From: an uncultured Nitrospirota bacterium
GTDB lineage: Bacteria; Nitrospirota; Nitrospiria; Nitrospirales; UBA8639
NCBI GenBank assembly: GCA_937139405.1
Contig: CAKZPV010000003.1
Span: forward strand, 1 to 64,000
Length of the DNA: 64,000 nucleotides
Reading direction: 5' to 3'
The notes beneath the pieces are model-generated. The model was not told the origin of the DNA, made no database searches, and saw only the letters and a program-made list of their open reading frames with translations. Shown here piece after piece: positions 7,749 to 61,061 of the stretch (its first letter is position 1; the number at the start of each line of letters is the position of its first letter). The position numbers and the translations under genes were made by a program.

Positions 7749-8110
7749 CTATAGGTCAGCTGTGACGCCTAGCAGCTTGCGCTGATACTCAAATTGGTCT
7801 TTTTTGAATGGCCCATGTACTTGTTGCACGGACGTGTCGATAATCCAGTAGTAGGTTTGTCCTGTTTTTTTACTTGTCATGTAGTCTTTTTCCCGCCAAC
7901 ATTCTTTTACAGCGATCTTTCGAGCAATGATAAAGCGGTTGTCACAATCATAATCAAGGATTTTACAAGGCATGTACTTCATCTCTGGTTTCCAAGATTT
8001 CGGTCCAATAGCAGTGTATGTCATACTTTGCCTACATAAACATATCTTCCTGACAGATCACCCATATAATCATTACTGCAGGCGGACATGAATAAGAGGG
8101 CAAAAAACAC
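7749..8110 (-). pseudogene. Frameshifted lipoprotein gene, DUF3997-like
   Basis: Two overlapping frames seem to be halves of one gene. The first, from a GTG at 8110, gives a lipoprotein signal with a lipobox-like FMSAC and then GDLSGRYVYVGKV before TGA at 8021. The second starts at the overlapping ATG at 8024 and runs 91 residues to 7749, with DNRFIIARK and YYWIIDTSVQQVHGP. The order 'lipobox, G-D-Y-like strand, DxxFIIA, YWIID, GP' is that of small DUF3997-type lipoproteins. A one-base shift at about 8021 separates the parts; translational coupling over ATGA is the alternative. Family assignment is from memory of the motifs. Confidence 0.5.
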
Positions 8111-8320
8111 GTAAATATTCTCATCTTTTTTGACTGTTTAAAAATTTTTCAAATGAAACCATATATCTTACCGTTGGTAGTGATACTCCATTAATTATGA
8201 GGCCAGGGAAAATTCAGTTTTGCGTATTCATACTGGAAGTAGGGTCTGTTCATTCTGGTGATGCAGACCGGGATTTTCTTCCTGGGGTTACCAATAGTTA
8301 CCGTTTCGGACTTTATTTAA

Positions 8321-9679
8321 CTATTGAGTGAGTTTAGCCTGGGTGGGGATTTGATCCAGGATTGTTGAGCGCACTTGATAGATTCCTTGGTGTCCGGCTC
8401 CTTTAGCATACACCAGCCCTTTTTCTCGTTTTCCTAATATTAATTGTCCGCTCTCTTGCCCTTGGTGATTTCGACCTTGAATGGTGACTGTTGGAGAGCC
8501 TAATCCCGTTTGAATGGATGTGGTGGATCCCTCAGGGTGGGTAATTTCTGTGGGAAGATCGACAACGCGACTGACAAACAGATTGATTGCTTTTTGGTTT
8601 AATGCGGAATTGGGGTCGCCATCAAGAAACCAGTCGTCATGTTGTTTGACGAGTACATAGTGGTCCTTTGGTGTTGTGACTTCCAGCATGACGACATCGT
8701 TGATTTCCATGCCAAATAATCGTTTATCTTGGAAATAGAAGGCTCCGCGAGTGATCGGCTTTAGGATATTGGGAGAGATTTCATAGAGTGGACTGGTATT
8801 AGATGTCATGGCATAGGCTTTTTCTGCATCTTGAAATTTATACAGGCTGACGTAATGGGTTCGGGGTCCTTCCAAGAGTGTGACTCCCACATGGGTGCGA
8901 TTGGGTTGTCCTAGAATCCGTTGTTTTTCTTCTTCTGAATCCACGAAACCCGTGGCCTTGAGTCCGCTCAAATCCATGAGGAGTGTCCCCATGATAATTT
9001 TATCGGCAGGGGCTTTCATCGGACTGGTGAACATCCAATTGGGTGAAAGGCTATGGACTCCGGCAGTCCGCGCCATGATCATTGTTGAGTCAGCTTGTTG
9101 AATGTGCACTTCTTGGACTCGCTCGCGTTCAAAAAAGAGTAAGTCTTTCAAACGAAAGTCGGGTAAGGTTTTTTGTGCAAAGGTCGTCACATCTAGGGTG
9201 GTCAGTACGACTTGATTGTCAACTTTGGTCTGGACGTATAACGACGGCGCAAAGGGTCCGCGATCACCCAATGCGAATTCCTGTGTCGTGCTTGGCGTTT
9301 GGAGTGTGAGTGTGAGGTAAGGTGGCCCCAAGCCATACTTATCTAATGTGGAAGGTCCATCTTCAATCGTCCGTTTGATCTTTCCGATGGTGAGGGCACG
9401 TAATATTCGTCGGACTTCCTGATTGTCGGCGGGAGTCCGCATAGGCTTGGTAATGGTCCATCGAAATTGCTTGTCACGCTCCAGTTGAATCGTTTCATCA
9501 GCGGTAGCCCAAATGATGGTAGTAATTTCTCGATCATCAAAGGGAAGCAGTTGTCGTTCTTGTGTTTCCTTTTTAGTGAATTGACGAGTTTGCGGAATGT
9601 CGATAAAAAGAATATAGCCCCCGAGCCCAAGGACAAGAAGAGCTAAGACGATAGTGATCCGGATCGGATTATTCAGCAT
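8321..9679 (-). CDS. DUF4340-containing membrane-anchored protein of an ABC-exporter operon
   Basis: The 452-aa protein has one N-terminal membrane anchor (residues 8-27) and then repeated beta-rich DUF4340 units outside the cytoplasm, for example PADNQEVRRILRALTIGKIKR and the ALGDRGPFAPSLYVQ region. DUF4340 proteins usually follow GldG-like subunits of this ABC system, exactly as here. The biochemical role is unknown. The ATG at 9679 has only a poor ribosome binding site. A REP-like repeat of about 130 bases lies between it and the upstream gldG-like gene, so the operon may be partly uncoupled. Confidence 0.8.
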   Translation of the reverse strand: MLNNPIRITIVLALLVLGLGGYILFIDIPQTRQFTKKETQERQLLPFDDREITTIIWATADETIQLERDKQFRWTITKPMRTPADNQEVRRILRALTIGKIKRTIEDGPSTLDKYGLGPPYLTLTLQTPSTTQEFALGDRGPFAPSLYVQTKVDNQVVLTTLDVTTFAQKTLPDFRLKDLLFFERERVQEVHIQQADSTMIMARTAGVHSLSPNWMFTSPMKAPADKIIMGTLLMDLSGLKATGFVDSEEEKQRILGQPNRTHVGVTLLEGPRTHYVSLYKFQDAEKAYAMTSNTSPLYEISPNILKPITRGAFYFQDKRLFGMEINDVVMLEVTTPKDHYVLVKQHDDWFLDGDPNSALNQKAINLFVSRVVDLPTEITHPEGSTTSIQTGLGSPTVTIQGRNHQGQESGQLILGKREKGLVYAKGAGHQGIYQVRSTILDQIPTQAKLTQ

Positions 9680-9745
9680 GGGTCTGTTAATACTTCATTG
9701 CAATAGTGCCGGGATTTGCAAAGTGAGATGGACATCATACGCTGG

Positions 9746-9878
9746 AGGGAATGGTCAAAAAATCCTGTCCAGCAAAGCCTCAGCCATTTTGGTACGCGGA
9801 GCGTACATTGAGTACGTGAGCACGGCACAACAGCGAGAACGCCGCTGGCGGCTTTTTTCAACATTCTCAGCATGTTAG
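9746..9878. repeat. Dispersed REP/MITE-like repeat, family A, copy 1
   Basis: This shares a clear backbone with 22894-23021: GGAATGGT(C/T)AAAAA, TCCAGCAA, GCGGAGCGTACA, ACGTGAGCACGGCA, GCGAGAACGCCG(C/T)TGG and TTTTT(C/G)AACATT. Its ends are imperfect inverted repeats (TCCAGCAAAGCC against the complement of GCCGCTGGCGG). The right end supplies the stop codon of the upstream gldG-like gene (TTA on the plus strand at 9875). Confidence 0.75.
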
Positions 9879-11398
9879 AGGCTTCGTCGTCTTTTCCATA
9901 CGGAGAGGCCTAAGAATAAGAGGAGTAGTGGAAGGAAGAGCACTTGAAAAAAGACGAGCGATTGTTCCTGTGAAGGATTGGGCACAAATGGGTGAAACGC
10001 GGGTTCTTTGGGCGTGAGAGACACGAGGGCCTCTTCTTTAGCTAACCATGCCATGGTTTTCAGAAAAAAATCTATATTGCCAGGATACGTGAGCCACCCA
10101 TTCGTGGCAAATGCGGCGTTGCCGACAATGATAATGGCTGACTCCGGTTTCAGATCTTGTCCTACCCGTTTTGATGTCAAGACTCCCGCGACGGCAAAGG
10201 GGCCTTTGGGGTCAAGGCCTTCATCAAAGACAGGCTCTGTCTTGGTGAGTGTCATTTCTTCCCAACTTTTTGCAGACGTGTGTGCTAATGGCTCATAGTC
10301 CCACTGCTTTCCTTGGGCGACATCAAAGGTGACTGAACGCGCAACCGGAAAAATAATAGGAGTCGTGAAATTTTCCGTAATATCGTGCGTGGTGAAGGTC
10401 CGCACCATCAATGCTGTGGGGCTCCCTCGGCCTAAGCGGTCTTGCTCATCGGCGAGAATTCCGACCCCCAAATGAATTCCCCATTGGGAGAGGAGAGGCT
10501 CCAAAGAATTTTGGCTGCTCGGATCATTCAGTATCAGGAGTCGTCCACCATTTCTGAGGAATTGTGTAATCTGATTGACGTCCTCAGGTAGAAGAGATTC
10601 CGTCGGTGATGGGATTATTAGCGCTGCAGCCTGACTAGAATGGATATTTTTCCAATTGACGGTATTGACTTCATAGCCTTGCTTATTTAGCGCATCAGCT
10701 GCCCGTGATAACCCAGGCGTTTCCTTGTTCGATATGCTTTTTTCCGAATGACCCGTAGTAAAGGCAATGCCTTTTTTGATGTCTCTGGTGACTCGAAGTA
10801 GGGCATTGGTCATATCTGCTTCTGAGGCACGTTGCAGATAAATCTGTTGTGGCCCACTTTCAATGACGGCCGTATCAATGCGAGTGACTTGATAGGCTTT
10901 GGCTTTATCGGGGTGTCGTTCGGGGTCAATGAACTCCACTGTGAGAAGAGGACTTTCTTTATCATAGGTGGTGAGTAGGTCTTGGTAGGCCCCATAGCCT
11001 GGACTGCCGTCTCGTGTAAAGACATGAATGTTGACTTCTCGTGGTAAGGCACGGAGGACCTGATAGGTCTGTCGGCTTAATGTGAAATTTTTGGTTTCCG
11101 AAAAATCCCATTCTGGTCCATGTTTGTCGGCGAGAAAATTGGTTAACCCCACCGCAAGGGCTGCCAAGAAAATGGCCAGAATGCTGTGCAAGCCAAGTCG
11201 TGCTGAGCGTTTCCGTGATCCCTTTACCAATCCTTGAAAATGAATGCCGACGTAGCCCAATAAACACAGGGTGCCAATCCCGAGAATGATGGAGGCCATG
11301 TTCTCTGCTTCGAGAGCTAAGAGCGGAAGACTGAAACCTCCGATTGTGAGTAAGAGCCCTACTGCTCCGAGTGAGGTGGCGAGACGTGTCACTTCCAT
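9875..11398 (-). CDS. GldG-like auxiliary subunit of an ABC exporter
   Basis: The 507-aa protein has two to three N-terminal membrane segments (10-60 and 72-92), a large external domain and a C-terminal anchor with a basic tail (VWKRRRSL). The external part carries the ABC_transp_aux pattern: FTLSRQTYQVLRALP, VEFIDPERHPDKA and TTGHSEKS. In the family these proteins assemble with GldA/GldF-type ABC subunits; the substrate is unknown outside gliding bacteria. The start ATG at 11398 overlaps the end of the permease gene by ten bases. Its last codon and stop lie in a dispersed repeat. Confidence 0.85.
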   Translation of the reverse strand: MEVTRLATSLGAVGLLLTIGGFSLPLLALEAENMASIILGIGTLCLLGYVGIHFQGLVKGSRKRSARLGLHSILAIFLAALAVGLTNFLADKHGPEWDFSETKNFTLSRQTYQVLRALPREVNIHVFTRDGSPGYGAYQDLLTTYDKESPLLTVEFIDPERHPDKAKAYQVTRIDTAVIESGPQQIYLQRASEADMTNALLRVTRDIKKGIAFTTGHSEKSISNKETPGLSRAADALNKQGYEVNTVNWKNIHSSQAAALIIPSPTESLLPEDVNQITQFLRNGGRLLILNDPSSQNSLEPLLSQWGIHLGVGILADEQDRLGRGSPTALMVRTFTTHDITENFTTPIIFPVARSVTFDVAQGKQWDYEPLAHTSAKSWEEMTLTKTEPVFDEGLDPKGPFAVAGVLTSKRVGQDLKPESAIIIVGNAAFATNGWLTYPGNIDFFLKTMAWLAKEEALVSLTPKEPAFHPFVPNPSQEQSLVFFQVLFLPLLLLFLGLSVWKRRRSL

Positions 11399-50304: not shown

Positions 50305-51822
50305 ATGGAAAAGAAGAAAAATGTGACTGTGTCTCAATGGGTTTGGATCCTAGCATGGCGAAAAAGTCTTGGATTGGCGGGAATGGGCATTCTTGTTGGT
50401 GCTTTGTTGTTTGGGGCGTGGAATAATCCCGCGCAGACTTTTGCTCATAAATCTGAATCAGATAATAGTCTGCAAACAACTGATCCACCTCATTTTCAGA
50501 AAGGAGGATTTGCCGATATTGCGAAACGAGTGACGCCTGCTGTCGTCAACATTACCGTAAGCAAGCAAGCGGCAGTGCCCATGTCTGGAATGCCGCTTGA
50601 TCCCATGAAAGAATTCTTTGGCTTACCTGGCACTCCTGGATTTTCGCCTCGTCATAAGGAAGCTCCTATGCCCAATCTCCAGGGCGCTGGTTCTGGCGTC
50701 ATTGTCTCATCCGATGGTTATGTCTTGACCAATAATCATGTCGTAGAGGGTGCCAAAGAAATTACTGTGACGTTGCCTGATAAACGAGACTTTACAGGAA
50801 CCGTAGTTGGGCTTGATCCTAAAACCGACTTGGCCGTACTTAAAGTGGAGGCCACTGAATTGCCATTTGTGCAATGGGGCGATTCTTCTCGCCTGCAAGT
50901 GGGTGAGTATGTGTTAGCGGTGGGGAATCCTTTTGGGTTGAATTCCACAGTGACCCTGGGGATTATAAGTGCCTTAGGACGTGGCGGGATGGGCATTACC
51001 CAATACGAGGACTTCATTCAAACTGATGCGGCCATCAATCCTGGAAATTCCGGTGGTGCGTTGGTTAATACTCGGGGCGAGTTGATTGGCATCAACACGG
51101 CTATTTTTTCTCGAACCGGTGGATATCAAGGCGTTGGATTTGCGGTACCTACGAAGTTAGCCAAACCCATTTATTCCAGTTTGGTCAGTACTGGTTCAGT
51201 GGTGCGAGGGTTTTTAGGCGTGGGAATCCAAGTGGTGACATCTGAATTAGCCGATTCTTTTCAATTAGAGAAAGCACAGGGAGCCTTAGTGACCAATGTT
51301 ATGTCAGGGAGCCCTGCCGACCAAGCCGGCATTCAACGTGGAGATGTGATTGTGGAATATGAAGGACAGGTCATAATTGATCCGCGTACGTTGCAAGGAC
51401 AGGTTGTCGGTACGACTGTAGGAAATGAGGTTTCTCTTGTTGTCGTACGAGAAGGTCAAAAGGTCACTCTCCGGCCGGTTATTCGTGAACAGCTCGAGCC
51501 CACGAAAGTTGCTCGTGTCAATATGATGAAACAAGACGGGCCATTTGCGGGGGTAGCTGTTCAAGATTTAGATAGTCGGATAGCGCAACAATTAGGAATT
51601 GCTGAAGAAGTAAGTGGCGTTGCGGTAATGGAGGTGACGCCAGGTAGTCATGCAGAACGAGCTGGATTGGTTCAGGGAGACGTCATTTCGGAGATCAACA
51701 GGAAACCGGTTCGCTCAGAACAAGACTTTGTTCAGGTGGTATCTCACCTAGAAAAACAAGAAGATGCATTGATTTTTATTCATCGCGGAAAAGGAGCCTT
51801 ATATTTGACCGTGAAGATTTAG
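50305..51822 (+). CDS. Do-family periplasmic serine protease (DegP/HtrA type)
   Basis: A periplasmic quality-control protease and chaperone. The 505-aa protein has an N-terminal signal or anchor (about 22-38), a trypsin-like domain with the triad His145 (LTNNHVVEG), Asp175 (KTDLAVLK) and Ser249 (NPGNSGGAL), and two PDZ domains (about 300-390 and 410-500). Signal cleavage is uncertain; a membrane-anchored DegS/DegQ-like form is possible. AAGGAGG precedes the ATG at 50305. A strong terminator follows immediately. Confidence 0.93.
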   Translation: MEKKKNVTVSQWVWILAWRKSLGLAGMGILVGALLFGAWNNPAQTFAHKSESDNSLQTTDPPHFQKGGFADIAKRVTPAVVNITVSKQAAVPMSGMPLDPMKEFFGLPGTPGFSPRHKEAPMPNLQGAGSGVIVSSDGYVLTNNHVVEGAKEITVTLPDKRDFTGTVVGLDPKTDLAVLKVEATELPFVQWGDSSRLQVGEYVLAVGNPFGLNSTVTLGIISALGRGGMGITQYEDFIQTDAAINPGNSGGALVNTRGELIGINTAIFSRTGGYQGVGFAVPTKLAKPIYSSLVSTGSVVRGFLGVGIQVVTSELADSFQLEKAQGALVTNVMSGSPADQAGIQRGDVIVEYEGQVIIDPRTLQGQVVGTTVGNEVSLVVVREGQKVTLRPVIREQLEPTKVARVNMMKQDGPFAGVAVQDLDSRIAQQLGIAEEVSGVAVMEVTPGSHAERAGLVQGDVISEINRKPVRSEQDFVQVVSHLEKQEDALIFIHRGKGALYLTVKI

Positions 51823-53598: not shown

Positions 53599-55914
53599 TT
53601 ATTGAATTCCAAGGCGGTGTAAGCGGCGATATAAAGTTACGCGGCTAATACCAAGAAGTTTTGCCGCAGCAGATCGATTTCCACCTGTTTTTTCCAAAAC
53701 ATCAAGGATTTGGTTCTCATGCTGGAGAATCGGTGCGTTTTTTCCTTTTGTATGAAGGGTGATGTCTTTTTGCTCTAAAATTTCCGGCGGAAAATCGTAT
53801 GCTTGCAACGTATTATCACGACAACGAATGACTGCAAATTCAATGGCATGCTGTAACTCACGAACATTGCCAGGCCAAGGATATCCCATGAGCAGTCGGA
53901 TGGCTTGATGGCTGATCATGTCAACGGGGCGGCCAGTCGACGCCCGACATTGTCCCAGAAAGGCACTCGAGAGAAGTGGGATATCTTCCCGTCGTTCCCG
54001 CAGTGGTGGAAGAAGAACTCGACCCACCCGAATCCGATATAATAAATCCGCGCGAAACTGCTCCGTGCGGACATCTTTCGCCAAATCATGGTGAGTGGCG
54101 GCAATCACCCGCACATTGATTTTTCGAAGTTTTGATTCTCCCAATCGTGTTACTTCGCGCTCCTGAAGGACCCGAAGCAGACTCGTTTGTATAGCAAGAG
54201 GAATATCACCGATTTCGTCTAAAAACAGGGTACCTCCTTCTGCTGCTTCGAAGAACCCTTGCTGGTCGGTGACTGCTCCTGTAAATGCCCCACGCTTGTG
54301 CCCAAATAGTTGGCTTCCAACAAGGGATTCGGTCAACCCAGCACAATTCACCCCAATAAATGGCCCATCCTGACGATGGCTGGAGCGATGAATGGCCCGC
54401 GCGACCAATTCCTTTCCCGTTCCAGTTTCCCCTTCGATTAACACGGTGGAATCGACTCGAGCTAATTCCTGTATTTGTTGAAACACGACTTGCATTTCTG
54501 GACTTTTTCCGATTATGTCTTGGAATTTTTCCCCTTCACCAAGTAAACGTCGAAGATCCTCTACTTCTGACGTGTCATACAAATACAAGATCTTTTGATA
54601 TGGGTCTCTTGGATCTTCCCTAACGTCGACTTTGACCCAACAAATCCGCCCACCTGAAACGGGTGGCATCTGGACTTTTATGGTTTCGCGTGTATCTAGT
54701 GAACGATCGATCATGTTTTTCAAAAGATTGATGTTTTCCGGGTCTTCAAATAGCTGTTGCCAGTGGTGTCCCAGAAAACGTTCCTGAGCTCTCGGGGAGA
54801 TCTGTTCCATGCCTTGGCTTAGGAAAATAATGTTTCCATCACGATTGATCAGGGCCATGCCAATATTGAGTTGATTCATGATAGCCTGGAGATCGTCATG
54901 ACTTCGTTGAAGTTCTTGGAGTACCTTTTCCAGTCGCTGTTCAGTTTCTTTTCGCTGGCCAATTTCTTGGTGTAACGTCTGATTGGCATTCGAGAGTTCA
55001 GCTGTTCGCAATTGAACTCGCTTCTCCAAGTCATCGTGGGTCTTTTGCAGTGCAGCTTCCGCTTGTTTTAATTCCGAAATATCTTTAGTAAAACTTGCGA
55101 GACCTGTTGGTTGATCTGTTTCTCCGGTCAAAAGAGAGAGGGAAACCAATACGGGCGTCATCACCCCAGATTTCGATTGCCGATATGCGGAAACATTGCG
55201 AACTAATTGACCCTGTTGGCATTGTGTTCTGAGTTCTTGAGCGAGAGTCTGCCATTCGGGTGGAATCAACTTCAGCGTGGATTGCCCAATTAACTCGTTC
55301 GCGTTCCATTCATAAGCCCGTTCAGCTTCTGGGTTAACCGCCATAATGATTCCCTGGAGATCTTCGATGATAATGGGATCTGTGGCATCTCTATATACTT
55401 TGGATAGTTTTCGAAGTTCTTCATGAGACCGCTTTCCGTCTAAATGAATTCTGAGCATTTCAGCTAGAGAGTGAATGAGATGACCCTCTTCAGTAAGAAA
55501 TGGCCCATCCATGGCCTGTGGCTTTTCTTCCAAGTACACGACCTCAATAATTCCAGGCACTTCTCCTTGGCACATGAATTCTGCGCTTTGGACCCAAGGA
55601 GTCATCTGAAAATTTGATGTGGTAACTGTGAACTGCTCAAACCGTATTCGCGCAGCCGTTATATCTGGGTATTGCCAGGATGGAGGGAGCAACGCGACAA
55701 TTTTCTCTAGTAATTGCTCGACAGACCACTCTTCTTGAAAAAGTCTGGCGGTGGCATGGAGGGCTGTCAGCTCTTTGACTCGTTCACCGAGATGGTGGAG
55801 GGCCTGCTTGAGCTGCTCACGCGTCTCTAAGGGTGTATCCGTATCCGACTCCTCGGTACGGATTCGACTGTGATCGGGAAGAGGGGAATCGTCAGAAATT
55901 GATGAATGAGTCAT
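53599..55914 (-). CDS. Sigma54-dependent transcriptional activator with GAF-like and PAS sensor domains
   Basis: The 771-aa protein begins with an acidic leader and helix, then a GAF-like region (about 50-170), PAS 1 (about 180-285), a coiled coil (285-340) and PAS 2 (340-450). The AAA+ sigma54-interaction domain (about 465-690) has Walker A GETGTGKE, the sigma54-contacting loop GAFTGA, and Walker B GGTLFLDEIGD. A Fis-type helix-turn-helix ends the protein (NRSAAAKLLGISRVTLYRRL). There is no receiver domain, so it should sense its signal directly. Its nearest downstream gene has a sigma54-like promoter. The signal is unknown. Confidence 0.93.
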   Translation of the reverse strand: MTHSSISDDSPLPDHSRIRTEESDTDTPLETREQLKQALHHLGERVKELTALHATARLFQEEWSVEQLLEKIVALLPPSWQYPDITAARIRFEQFTVTTSNFQMTPWVQSAEFMCQGEVPGIIEVVYLEEKPQAMDGPFLTEEGHLIHSLAEMLRIHLDGKRSHEELRKLSKVYRDATDPIIIEDLQGIIMAVNPEAERAYEWNANELIGQSTLKLIPPEWQTLAQELRTQCQQGQLVRNVSAYRQSKSGVMTPVLVSLSLLTGETDQPTGLASFTKDISELKQAEAALQKTHDDLEKRVQLRTAELSNANQTLHQEIGQRKETEQRLEKVLQELQRSHDDLQAIMNQLNIGMALINRDGNIIFLSQGMEQISPRAQERFLGHHWQQLFEDPENINLLKNMIDRSLDTRETIKVQMPPVSGGRICWVKVDVREDPRDPYQKILYLYDTSEVEDLRRLLGEGEKFQDIIGKSPEMQVVFQQIQELARVDSTVLIEGETGTGKELVARAIHRSSHRQDGPFIGVNCAGLTESLVGSQLFGHKRGAFTGAVTDQQGFFEAAEGGTLFLDEIGDIPLAIQTSLLRVLQEREVTRLGESKLRKINVRVIAATHHDLAKDVRTEQFRADLLYRIRVGRVLLPPLRERREDIPLLSSAFLGQCRASTGRPVDMISHQAIRLLMGYPWPGNVRELQHAIEFAVIRCRDNTLQAYDFPPEILEQKDITLHTKGKNAPILQHENQILDVLEKTGGNRSAAAKLLGISRVTLYRRLHRLGIQ

Positions 55915-56948: not shown

Positions 56949-57902
56949 TTATAGATTGCCGATTGGAGCAAAATGTTGCTTGGCAAAGGTGATGCGATCC
57001 TCTACTGATTTTAGGTTTGAGGCATGGTGTTCAATTAATTGGAGACGGGTTAATAATCCGGCACGGTTGGCAATTTGAATATTAAGGCCGGGGCGAGCAT
57101 TCAATTCAAGAATGAGTGGTCCTTTATCCCTATCCAAGACGAGATCGACGCCTTGATAGCCCAATCCTGTTAACTCATACGAGCGAGCGGCTAAGTCTAA
57201 CAAGGTGTCCCATCCCGGAATCTGCACGTTGGTAATCGATTTTTCCGTGTCGGGATGCTCGGTGATAATTTCATTCTTCCACACACCGCTCAAAGTTTTC
57301 CCGGTGCGGAGATTAATGCCGGCGCCAATGGCTCCCTGGTGTAAATTGGCTTTTCCATCAGACATTCGAGTAGGAAGTCTTACCATGGCCATCGCAGGGA
57401 CACCCAAAAACACAATGATTCTCACATCTGGTACGCCTTGAAAGCTGATGGCTTCGAATACTGGATCAAATAGCACGCGGTATTCAATGAGGACCTTATC
57501 AGGATGTCCACCTAAACTATAGAGTCCACTTAGGGCATTAGAAGCATGGTGATCCAGGTCCTCTTGGGTGATAAATTGACCATTCGCTTTGCGGTATCGT
57601 TCACCTCGACGACCTGTGATGACCACGATGCCATCTCCTCCGCTTCCCTGTGCGGGTTTTACGACAAAATCTTCATAGGGTTTCAGAAGAGCGGACAGTC
57701 CTCGTACCTGATGCTCAATTTCAATCACGCCGTATAGCGGTGGGACGGCCATACCGGCTTTCTCCGCTAATAATTTCGTCGTTAATTTGTCGTCAACCAA
57801 CGGATATAAATGGCGGGAGTTATGCCATAAGGTATATTCTGCGTTTCGGCAGTTCAAACTGAGGACGCCAGCCTTGGCGAGTTTTTTCGCGATTGCAAAC
57901 AT
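56949..57902 (-). CDS. RimK-related ATP-grasp ligase of the retropepsin/7TM triad
   Basis: The 317-aa ATP-grasp enzyme belongs to the alpha-L-glutamate ligase-related group. The ATP-binding lysines and glycine loop are in FVVKPAQGSGGDGIVVI (about 79-96), and the Mg-binding residues are in LILELNARPGLNIQIANRAG (about 265-284). Members ligate an amino acid or amine to a carboxylate; the substrate here is unknown. It is the last gene of a three-gene operon, 18 bases after the 7TM gene, with a weak ribosome binding site that suggests coupled translation. Confidence 0.88.
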   Translation of the reverse strand: MFAIAKKLAKAGVLSLNCRNAEYTLWHNSRHLYPLVDDKLTTKLLAEKAGMAVPPLYGVIEIEHQVRGLSALLKPYEDFVVKPAQGSGGDGIVVITGRRGERYRKANGQFITQEDLDHHASNALSGLYSLGGHPDKVLIEYRVLFDPVFEAISFQGVPDVRIIVFLGVPAMAMVRLPTRMSDGKANLHQGAIGAGINLRTGKTLSGVWKNEIITEHPDTEKSITNVQIPGWDTLLDLAARSYELTGLGYQGVDLVLDRDKGPLILELNARPGLNIQIANRAGLLTRLQLIEHHASNLKSVEDRITFAKQHFAPIGNL

Positions 57903-57920
57903 GAAGGGGGGCCAATTGTT

Positions 57921-59447
57921 TTACGATGGTGCCAAAGCTTTAAACCTACGCAATTCCAAGAGTCGAAAGCCTGAATAGCGACCCATAAGCAAGGTGCCGG
58001 CTAACAAAACCAATAAAAGTTCCGGGAATACAAAAAGAAGGTGTTCGACATAAGGAATAGACATCGTCAAATACGTCAGCACCGCAACCACAAGGCTTCC
58101 AATGCCTTGCTGCAGAGATTCACTGGCTCCTCGCTCATCCCAAACAATGCACATACGTTCTATTGTCATGGTAATAATCACCATGGGGAATAAGGCCACA
58201 GACAATCCGCGTTCAAAGCCTAATTGAAAACTGAGAATACTGAGGAACGCCATTAAAAGGACCACAACAATAAGGAGGGATGCCAAACGAGGAACGAGTA
58301 AAAGCTTCAGTTGCTCCAAGTAAAAACGAACGCCCAGGCCAAGACTGACGACTAGGCTAAATAAGATGATGCCCCATAGAAGTTGGGTTTCTCGGAAGGC
58401 TAGGGCCATGAGAATAGGCATAAATGTCCCGAAGGTTTTAATGCCAATAATGTTTCGAAGGATAAGCAATAACAATGCACCAAGTGGGACCATGAGCAAA
58501 ATTCGATAGACGGCTTGAGTTTGTAAGGGTAAGTTAAATAGAGAGAAATCTAAAAGCTTGGGAATGGCTAACTTGGTTGAAAGGAGTGCCGCTTGAATGG
58601 CTTCCTCCTGATTAGGTGCGACTGAAACCGTATATTCGAATTTTTTGATACCGTTGACTTTAAAAAATGGTTTGGTTCCATGCCACCATTCAACATAGTC
58701 TCCTGAAATTTCTGGTGTACCCGTAAGGGGATCAAATGAACGCCATGAATTGTTCTCATAGATTTGAAACCACATTTCCCACTGGACGGAACGCGGTTCC
58801 GTAGGAATGCGAATCCCATGGATCACCCGTGCTGGAAGTCTCGATGCTTTAAGGACTTCGACGACGGTGTTGAGCTTGGTTTCTAGGGAAGGGTTGTTTC
58901 CTATGAGAACGGATATGGTTTCAGACGGGCTAGGGTCGTGAATTCGTTTAATGAGAGCCTGAACAAAAGTTTCGGTATCGGCAGATTTTGAGAGGAGGTC
59001 TTCAGCAAGGGCCTGTGCGGCTTCCAGTAGGGGGCTTTCAAGTGTGGGTTTGGTGAGTGGCGCATTTTTGGGTTTGCCTGGGACATGGTCCGTGGGCATG
59101 CGACGAATGATTGCTCGGTAGTAGAGAGATTGCTTCCCATTGGCTTTTCGGATTGACCAGATCGCTCGTCGGTTTCCTTCATCCGGTGTTGTGGTTGCGA
59201 GCCCAAACCCCTGAGAAATAAAATTTTCATCTAAAATTGCATATTCAGGGGTGTTTCGAGGGATATAGATTCCTACCTTAATAGGTTTGTCCTTGGCCTT
59301 AAACGTGGCATGTACTTCGAGGTTCCAAATCAGAGCAGAGGTGTCTTCAACGAGAGGAAATTTGAGGACGAAGGCTTTATAAGCAAACAGCCCCAATCCA
59401 AGCAAGGTGAGGCTTAAGGCGAGGATATAGAGATGACGTTTTTTCAT
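57921..59447 (-). CDS. Inactive-transglutaminase-like domain fused to seven membrane helices
   Basis: The 508-aa protein has an N-terminal anchor (6-26), a periplasmic region (about 40-300) that resembles transglutaminase-like folds (for example VEVLKASRLPARVIHGI and the FQIYENNSWRSFDPLTG segment), and a C-terminal bundle of seven membrane helices (about 310-495). The transglutaminase catalytic Cys is not evident, consistent with the inactive class. It overlaps the retropepsin-like gene by four bases. It probably provides a membrane platform or sensor for the ligase and protease. Confidence 0.87.
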   Translation of the reverse strand: MKKRHLYILALSLTLLGLGLFAYKAFVLKFPLVEDTSALIWNLEVHATFKAKDKPIKVGIYIPRNTPEYAILDENFISQGFGLATTTPDEGNRRAIWSIRKANGKQSLYYRAIIRRMPTDHVPGKPKNAPLTKPTLESPLLEAAQALAEDLLSKSADTETFVQALIKRIHDPSPSETISVLIGNNPSLETKLNTVVEVLKASRLPARVIHGIRIPTEPRSVQWEMWFQIYENNSWRSFDPLTGTPEISGDYVEWWHGTKPFFKVNGIKKFEYTVSVAPNQEEAIQAALLSTKLAIPKLLDFSLFNLPLQTQAVYRILLMVPLGALLLLILRNIIGIKTFGTFMPILMALAFRETQLLWGIILFSLVVSLGLGVRFYLEQLKLLLVPRLASLLIVVVLLMAFLSILSFQLGFERGLSVALFPMVIITMTIERMCIVWDERGASESLQQGIGSLVVAVLTYLTMSIPYVEHLLFVFPELLLVLLAGTLLMGRYSGFRLLELRRFKALAPS

Positions 59448-59986
59448 TCCGGTGCTGCTTCACAGATTGACGATTGGGTCAGGGTGAGATCTGAATCGAC
59501 AATGGCTGAACCTTTCAAGAAACTACGACCAATCAGCATGGGAAATTTAAATCCTGTGCGGTCTGCCAAATTGACCGGCACATCTTCTTTGAACAAGGTG
59601 CCTACGCACAAGTCCATGAGAACAATAGTTCTTTTAAGGCTCGCTGCACCTTTCCGCTTGATTCGAGTATAGCGTTTAATAGGTCTTTCCAATGTAATAG
59701 CTTGCTCTTCTCCTAGTGGAATTGTAAAACGAATCCAGGATTGCTCTTCCTTTTGAAACTCAGTTGGGTTGGTGATGCTGAGAGATGAATTGTCTGCTCC
59801 AGTATCAATTTTTGCAGCAAGTTGAAAATTTTCTGGAACAATCTGTACCGTTTCAAGCCATCCAATAGTTATTTTTTCAGGCGAGTCGGCGGAGGCAATA
59901 CTGCTAGCTAATCCCCAACTGAGAACCCAAACAGCAAAAAAAATTGTCAATAGCCTTGTTAAGGAACTTTGTAAATGTTTATCCAT
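59444..59986 (-). CDS. Exported RimB-like retropepsin (putative aspartic peptidase)
   Basis: The 180-aa protein has a signal peptide (about 12-33, ending SIASA), then a retropepsin-like domain with the active-site motif KIDTGADNSSL (about 59-69) and a second conserved stretch FPMLIGRSFLKGSAIVD near the end. Databases often call this family an ATP-dependent zinc protease, but the DTGA motif indicates the aspartic-peptidase fold. It leads the triad operon. By analogy with RimB it may undo modifications added by the ATP-grasp ligase, though it is predicted to lie outside the cytoplasm. Confidence 0.88.
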   Translation of the reverse strand: MDKHLQSSLTRLLTIFFAVWVLSWGLASSIASADSPEKITIGWLETVQIVPENFQLAAKIDTGADNSSLSITNPTEFQKEEQSWIRFTIPLGEEQAITLERPIKRYTRIKRKGAASLKRTIVLMDLCVGTLFKEDVPVNLADRTGFKFPMLIGRSFLKGSAIVDSDLTLTQSSICEAAPE

Positions 59987-60349
59987 TTTCCTATCCGGAG
60001 ATGAAATTGACTAGAGGATTGGGCCGATTAGTATAACCTAAAATTTAGTGGATGTCTTCTGATTAATATTTACGGATATGTTCACCCTGCTTCTTTCTTT
60101 GATTGAGAGGGAAAAGTAGGGTTGCTGACAGGAGAGGCTTGGGGAAAAGCCTGGGGTGTTGTCAAAACATACAGCGGCGCAAACTAAAAATGGGTAGGTA
60201 ATTTTTTGAGAATGGCTTGTCCACGCGCGAAGGAAACTGCGCGGGCAGGGGTATGCGAAGCAAAAGATCAATTCGGTCTGTTTCAGGGAGTTGATCTGTG
60301 ACACGCGGTTCTACGGTTGTGGCATTCAACTAAGCTTTCCTTCTAGTTA

Positions 60350-61061
60350 TTATAGGTAAATAGGGGCTTCTGCAATGTATAGTGTGACTTCTTCACTCTC
60401 GGCGTCTGCTAGTAATTGTGCTGCGAGTTTCCAATTGTCGTCTATGCTGAATGGAACCATGATGATGTGAACATGGAATTTTTTGGTGAAGGTCTCCTTG
60501 CTTATTGTATGTTGTGGAAGACTCAGCGGAGTTGGCGCGATCATCGCATGCCGGGGGTATTGATGTAATGCTTGGCCTGGTCCAATTTCTAAAATAGTGG
60601 TTGCCAATGCATTGTGGACGAGCATATTTTCTCGAATGCCTCGGACTTCAACGCGGTCACCGAAGCTATAGGCTTGGGTGGGCATCCGCAATGGAGTTGC
60701 TAATACAGGTTTTGATTTTTTTTGGCCAACACTAAGGCTAGGGTGACCGCCAATATCGAAACGGCAAATGGTTCGATTTTGGAGCCGGAATGAAGCGAAT
60801 TCCAAGAATGAAAATGACGAGCAAAATATTTCGCATGGTAACGCCCTATCATCGCGGACTTTCCGCAGGAAGGTCGGTGTTCTGAAGAAGGCTGTAATAA
60901 ATTTCAATTCGTATGATGATCGTAATCAGAATGAGCAAAAGCATGCTGAGTTCGTATCGATTAACCAACTCTGATGTGTTATTCAGTATCTCTTCTATTA
61001 CCCACTCCCATGCGACATGTGGTATGACACTTATTAGACTGTATGACATGATTTTGGTCAA
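60350..61061 (-). pseudogene. Decayed MscS-like mechanosensitive channel gene
   Basis: Three frames together reconstruct one small MscS-family channel. From 61061: a membrane helix (ELSMLLLILITIIIRIEIY) and LPAESPR, then tandem stops TGA TAG, continuing in the same frame with MRNILLVIFILGI. After one frameshift comes KIEPFAVSILAVTLALVLA (pore-lining helix region). After another, from about 60700, come AYSFGDRVEVRGIRENMLVH, ALATTILEIGPG, IAPTPLSLPQHTISKETFT and FHVHIIMVPF (the beta domain). Homologous proteins have these segments in this order. A shorter expressed product from a late start is possible but would lack the pore. Confidence 0.7.

Follow-up and report, generated by a model that had tools for sequence, protein, structure and literature searches.

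The rloABC operon of Pseudomonas aeruginosa, characterised in 2025, encodes a retropepsin with a basic channel (RloA), for which D48, R114 and R137 are required and which in vitro cuts polyglutamate runs of at least eight glutamates and leaves runs of six uncut (PMC12239564). Three RloA paralogues are redundantly required at low osmolarity in this organism, and growth of the rloA1-3 triple mutant under this condition is restored by deletion of rloB or rloC (PMC12239564). The operon PA1768-PA1767-PA1766 has also been recovered in an exopolysaccharide-overproduction suppressor screen (PMC7314104), and disruption of a gene annotated as an inactive transglutaminase in another bacterium increased membrane-vesicle production (PMC12096838). 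The Rlo proteases of P. aeruginosa control biofilm formation, sensitivity to beta-lactams and osmotic survival. In a published survey 96% of RloB matches fell in Proteobacteria (PMC12239564), and a literature search recovered no papers mentioning the Rlo family identifiers. Among related enzymes, RimK together with RimB has been found to make free poly-alpha-glutamate in vitro (PMC11957791).

Here, an operon located in a 64,000-nucleotide stretch of a contig from an uncultured Nitrospirota bacterium (the window) is identified as rloABC, the system known from P. aeruginosa, in a distant bacterial group. The preliminary description of this locus had read it as a ligase and a hydrolase of opposite action joined by a membrane component. 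That first reading was largely right, and the pairing of a predicted ligase (RloC) with a retropepsin (RloA) is borne out, but the functional link between the products had, without its knowledge, already been published (PMC12239564), the system itself having been named and partly explained in 2025. It also overlooked a second rlo copy in the same genome, relatives that lack RloA and carry a live transglutaminase, and a fusion of the membrane domain to the ligase. What is added here is the occurrence of the system, in two copies, in Nitrospirota, along with a variant that lacks RloA but has a live transglutaminase and a fusion from an archaeon; together these favour a role in polyglutamate synthesis and export.

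Organization of the operon

Inspection of the open reading frames of the window recovered the three genes exactly where they had first been placed (Table 1), with a 4-base overlap (ATGA) between rloA and rloB and an 18-base gap between the rloB stop and the rloC start. An RloA-type retropepsin gene comes first (signal peptide recognised by eye), followed by an RloB with a dead transglutaminase domain and a 7TM region and, directly 3', by a TIGR02291-type RloC, the set of features that defines rloABC. The other RloA-bearing loci fetched, some of which are duplicates of one another, repeat the A-B-C order and likewise have short gaps or overlaps between the genes, indicating that the arrangement in the window is not due to chance. 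In the region upstream of rloA, promoter-like matches did not exceed the shuffled expectation and none was convincing; a terminator scan at the operon gave nothing exceeding chance.

Table 1. Coordinates of the rlo genes and upstream region within the window.
Feature	Position	Strand	Description
rloA	59444..59986	-	180 aa; exported retropepsin-like aspartic peptidase; DTGA active site, D61; PF05618, RloA NCBIfam models
rloB	57921..59447	-	508 aa; TM helix, periplasmic transglutaminase-like domain without Cys-His-Asp triad, then 7TM_transglut; PF14400, PF14402, NF052267
rloC	56949..57902	-	317 aa; cytoplasmic ATP-grasp ligase, TIGR02291 / ATPgrasp_ST; PF14397
Intergenic, 5' of rloA	59987..60350	-	presumed promoter region

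Downstream of the operon and on the same strand, the window encodes a PAS-containing sigma-54-dependent activator (53599-55914, minus strand). A DegP/HtrA-like trypsin-fold protease with PDZ domains is encoded about 5 kb from the operon (50305-51819, plus strand), and relatives of this protease directly adjoin the rlo operons of two other loci (L043 and L050).

Family assignment and conserved residues

All three family assignments and the topology first proposed are upheld by Pfam and NCBIfam matches, together with the signal peptide seen by eye. RloA matches the Pfam family Zn_protease (PF05618, 3e-27) and the NCBIfam models of RloA-type retropepsins (best 5e-28), and carries an apparent Sec signal peptide ending in ASA and the motif AKIDTGA, both recognised by eye from the sequence. 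It can be aligned to the crystal chains 9g58 and 2pma. Residues K59, D61, R119 and R143 are invariant across ten aligned relatives, one of them RimB, and align with K46, D48, R114 and R137 of P. aeruginosa RloA; K59, R119 and R143 are the basic substrate-channel residues. Since the residues that contact polyglutamate are kept in the window copy, we infer that its substrate, too, may be a chain of glutamates or some comparable polyanion.

Alternatively, RloA might act on RloB itself or on another protein glutamylated by RloB and RloC, in which case the operon would be a self-limiting regulator of peptidoglycan and not a polymer pathway. That losing RloB or RloC relieves the rloA1-3 defect is in keeping with such a circuit; a published search of P. 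aeruginosa, however, turned up no exported protein encoded in the genome that contains the glutamate run needed, and this explanation is considered very improbable.

RloB matches Transglut_i_TM (PF14400, 8e-43) and 7TM_transglut (PF14402, 2e-101), as well as NCBIfam NF052267 (8e-140), covering profile positions 6-505 of 508. In the alignment, the positions occupied by Cys-His-Asp in active transglutaminases and cysteine peptidases hold L-E-D in the window protein and Q-K-D in the second copy; the active triad is thus absent from both, and the transglutaminase domain of the window RloB is dead, as had been claimed from the first. In an AlphaFold model of RloB (mean pLDDT 73.7), 229 residues of the periplasmic part match 3isr_A, a putative cysteine protease, with Z 15.4, and the comparison with the periplasmic domain of TgpA gives Z 8.3. 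RloC belongs to ATPgrasp_ST (PF14397, 4e-92) and scores 468 bits with TIGR02291 (alpha-L-glutamate ligase-like), well above the cut-off of 314 bits. Its ATP-grasp residues K82, D253, E266 and N268 are invariant in 29 relatives, and its kinship with RimK is confined to the C-terminal ATP-grasp part.

The window proteins fall under the NCBIfam equivalog/exception cut-offs set for P. aeruginosa RloA (97.7 versus 210 bits) and RloB (466.9 versus 900 bits), placing them in the same family and architecture but outside the narrow set of Pseudomonas orthologues.

Host and distribution of rlo loci

The best named relatives are Nitrospirales metagenome-assembled genomes (RloB identity 86%). The window genome itself holds two rlo operons, on contigs C3 and C17, whose products are 48% (RloB) and 63% (RloC) identical to each other. 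It also encodes RimB-RimK separately, on contig C1. Occurrence in the phylum is patchy, with RloB found in 16 of the 296 genomes sampled. Further rlo loci were recovered from Desulfobacterales, Syntrophales, a gammaproteobacterium, Legionella and Aeromonas, so that the rlo system appears as an old feature of several phyla and not of Gammaproteobacteria alone. Relatives among plasmids came only from Legionella, Aeromonas and Halobacterium, and the viral contigs searched yielded none.

Several loci presented particular arrangements. In two of them (L024, G000:C1:21000-36500, about 7764-10228; L027, 11109-14519) RimB-RimK is followed by an aspartoacylase/succinylglutamate-desuccinylase-like gene, its family assigned by sequence inspection, and in genome G137 about 1.6 kb separates such a cluster of RimB, RimK and an aspartoacylase-like gene from the rlo operon. 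In one Nitrospirae metagenome-assembled genome RloB is split into two overlapping frames (L049, 7698-9175), reflecting either a frameshift or a sequencing error. An unusually long RloA frame of 303-309 aa, in which the peptidase domain is preceded by about 150 residues, occurs in genome G251 (L029, 9293-10219), where a wrong start or an additional N-terminal part is possible.

Loci without RloA and a predicted archaeal fusion

In five genomes (G001, G020, G029, G041 and G139) RloB retains Cys-His-Asp, in the motifs EASCNGK, HQWVE and FDT, and the one such protein compared with Pfam (from L036) matches the ordinary Transglut_core family. Secreted RloA is absent from all five: three have no PF05618 protein of any kind, and in the remaining two the single PF05618 member adjoins RimK and, judged by eye, lacks a signal sequence. 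Conversely, the triad is gone from every RloB whose locus includes RloA and whose triad region can be read. The distribution looks as if the live transglutaminase of RloB were the source of cutting activity where RloA is missing. The live-triad genomes form one clade (four of the five are in the tree, support 0.996-1.0), and the association between triad and RloA therefore represents one evolutionary switch and not five.

The order in the four complete RloA-less loci (G029 ends ahead of the downstream genes) is RloB, RloC, a TPR protein and a protein of 390 to 430 aa. The TPR protein has an N-terminal membrane anchor holding it at the inner membrane; the 390 to 430 aa protein has a signal sequence and is by eye a probable outer-membrane barrel, although no Pfam model matched it. 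A TPR protein accompanied by a probable outer-membrane barrel is the layout of polymer exporters.

A plasmid of Halobacterium sp. DL1 carries a 589-codon open frame in which 7TM_transglut (56-248) leads straight into ATPgrasp_ST (291-562) and a transglutaminase domain is missing; the gene table of the record shows no gene at this predicted frame. No RloA was found within the 12.6 kb fetched around it. This predicted fusion makes it probable that RloC and the membrane domain function as a pair and, together with the RloA-less variant, identifies membrane domain plus ligase as the conserved unit, the external hydrolases being interchangeable. As far as could be found, neither the live-triad RloA-less variant nor the Halobacterium fusion has been reported.

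The fusion also bears on the idea that RloB is a receptor which reads RloA products or the state of the envelope and regulates RloC on an unrelated cytoplasmic substrate, with nothing crossing the membrane. An inactive enzyme domain on the periplasmic side does resemble a binding sensor, RimK is under allosteric regulation by Rim proteins, and the published epistasis is equally compatible with regulation and with transport. Yet the fusion consists of membrane domain and RloC only and has no periplasmic sensor domain, and the polyglutamate preference of the secreted protease is not easily explained by a regulatory role. A sensor function is accordingly judged improbable.

Relationship of the RloB membrane domain to PgsC/CapC

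The first 35 or so residues of the RloB membrane domain resemble PgsC/CapC, which partners the poly-gamma-glutamate ligase PgsB in the membrane, in profile alignment (29.6 versus 17.0 +/- 2.6 for block-shuffled profiles, with none of 800 reaching the observed value), while in an earlier run one of 60 shuffles, at 30.8, lay above the observed score. When 71 membrane proteins were compared with CapC, RloB proteins held 15 of the 17 top places, CapC having been picked for comparison after the motif was spotted by eye. The relation is unsupported by hhalign (probability 0.7%), and CapC (PF14102) gave no RloB match at E up to 10, a search in which the HMMER filters discard most weak matches. As hhalign and Pfam are unsupportive and CapC was chosen post hoc, the similarity is suggestive only, a lead and not a result.

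Two further comparisons were set aside. A semi-global alignment of RloB and CapC beat block shuffles but only equalled the best circular shift and failed to place both motifs in register, and fold matches in the 7TM region of the full RloB model (e.g. AcrB helices, Z about 6) were taken as common helix packing. A model of the transmembrane part alone was too poor for structure search (pLDDT 51.7). A sequence search of the PDB recovered no CapC relative, and the absence of a PgsC-type fold match is therefore uninformative. Separately, a 1086 aa open frame with two tandem CapC domains and further sequence (L053, G178:C23) represents a duplicated PgsC-like protein.

Proposed function

The favoured reading, to which we give about an even chance, is that the operon encodes a PgsB-PgsC-like unit for polyglutamate synthesis and export, combined with a periplasmic trimming enzyme. 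RloC would build an oligo- or poly-alpha-glutamate chain with ATP at the cytoplasmic face, free or on an acceptor, a chemistry made plausible by the in vitro synthesis of poly-alpha-glutamate by RimK and RimB. The membrane domain of RloB would hold RloC at the membrane and deliver the chain to the periplasmic side, there to be bound by the dead transglutaminase-like domain and then cleaved by a secreted RloA dimer. In cells lacking RloA the anionic product would build up and cause harm at low osmolarity; on removal of RloB or RloC it would no longer be made. The chemistry of RloC, transport by RloB, the identity of the natural product and the carry-over to Nitrospirales are the inferred parts of this model. 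The comparative pattern narrows the question of the substrate, in that the core of membrane domain and ligase is constant and the outside cutting activity comes in two alternative forms, which makes the synthesis and export hypothesis directly testable.

Glutamylation of a specific acceptor has to be weighed against a free polymer. RloC could modify a lipoprotein, a lipid-linked precursor or a peptidoglycan stem peptide, which RloB would present or flip and from which RloA would remove the glutamate tail in the periplasm, so that a free polymer would never arise. The cell-shape and beta-lactam phenotypes of P. aeruginosa rlo mutants agree with this, as does the action of RimK, a relative of RloC, on a protein C-terminus, and the P. 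aeruginosa authors favour, as the substrate, either peptides of polyglutamate or proteins that are polyglutamylated post-translationally. Against it, the compared loci have no conserved acceptor gene next to the operon, though one could be encoded elsewhere, and an obvious acceptor is likewise missing with the Halobacterium fusion and in the RloA-less clade. On balance, tail modification seems unlikely.

Returning to polyglutamate synthesis and export, a broader version is put forward tentatively, as possible but somewhat doubtful: RloB-RloC may constitute a previously unrecognised class of polyglutamate synthase/exporter, made up of an ATP-grasp ligase and a PgsC-like membrane domain, with archaeal fusions and an interchangeable hydrolase. 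The ancestral hydrolase would have been the transglutaminase-like domain of RloB, working in a system with the TPR protein and outer-membrane barrel; RloA would later have replaced it, and the triad would then have been lost.

Comparison with known systems

On paper, the Rlo system and PgsB-PgsC (CapB-CapC) are alike in having a cytoplasmic ligase, a small polytopic membrane partner and an external hydrolase, and there is weak motif similarity between the membrane partners. However, PgsB is Mur-ligase-like and not an ATP-grasp enzyme as RloC is, PgsC has no periplasmic domain, the linkage is gamma and not alpha, and Pfam does not link the membrane proteins.

With RimB-RimK, a cytoplasmic system of ribosomal S6 glutamylation and poly-alpha-glutamate synthesis, the operon shares the pairing of a retropepsin with an ATP-grasp enzyme. 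RimB, in contrast, has no signal peptide, the system has no membrane component, and RloC belongs to another ATP-grasp family (ATPgrasp_ST / TIGR02291). The window operon is not itself a cytoplasmic RimB-RimK, as its RloA carries an apparent signal peptide and RimB-RimK is encoded separately in this genome.

The RloA-less Nitrospirota operon (L035-L038) has the RloB membrane domain and RloC in common with the window and differs from it by its intact triad, the lack of RloA and the added TPR protein and probable barrel. The closest match is to rloABC of P. aeruginosa, with the same three families, A-B-C order and tight spacing, a secreted retropepsin with the same basic substrate-channel residues, a dead transglutaminase and a cytoplasmic ATP-grasp enzyme; the window operon is set apart by its Nitrospirales host and by the presence of two rlo operons in one genome.
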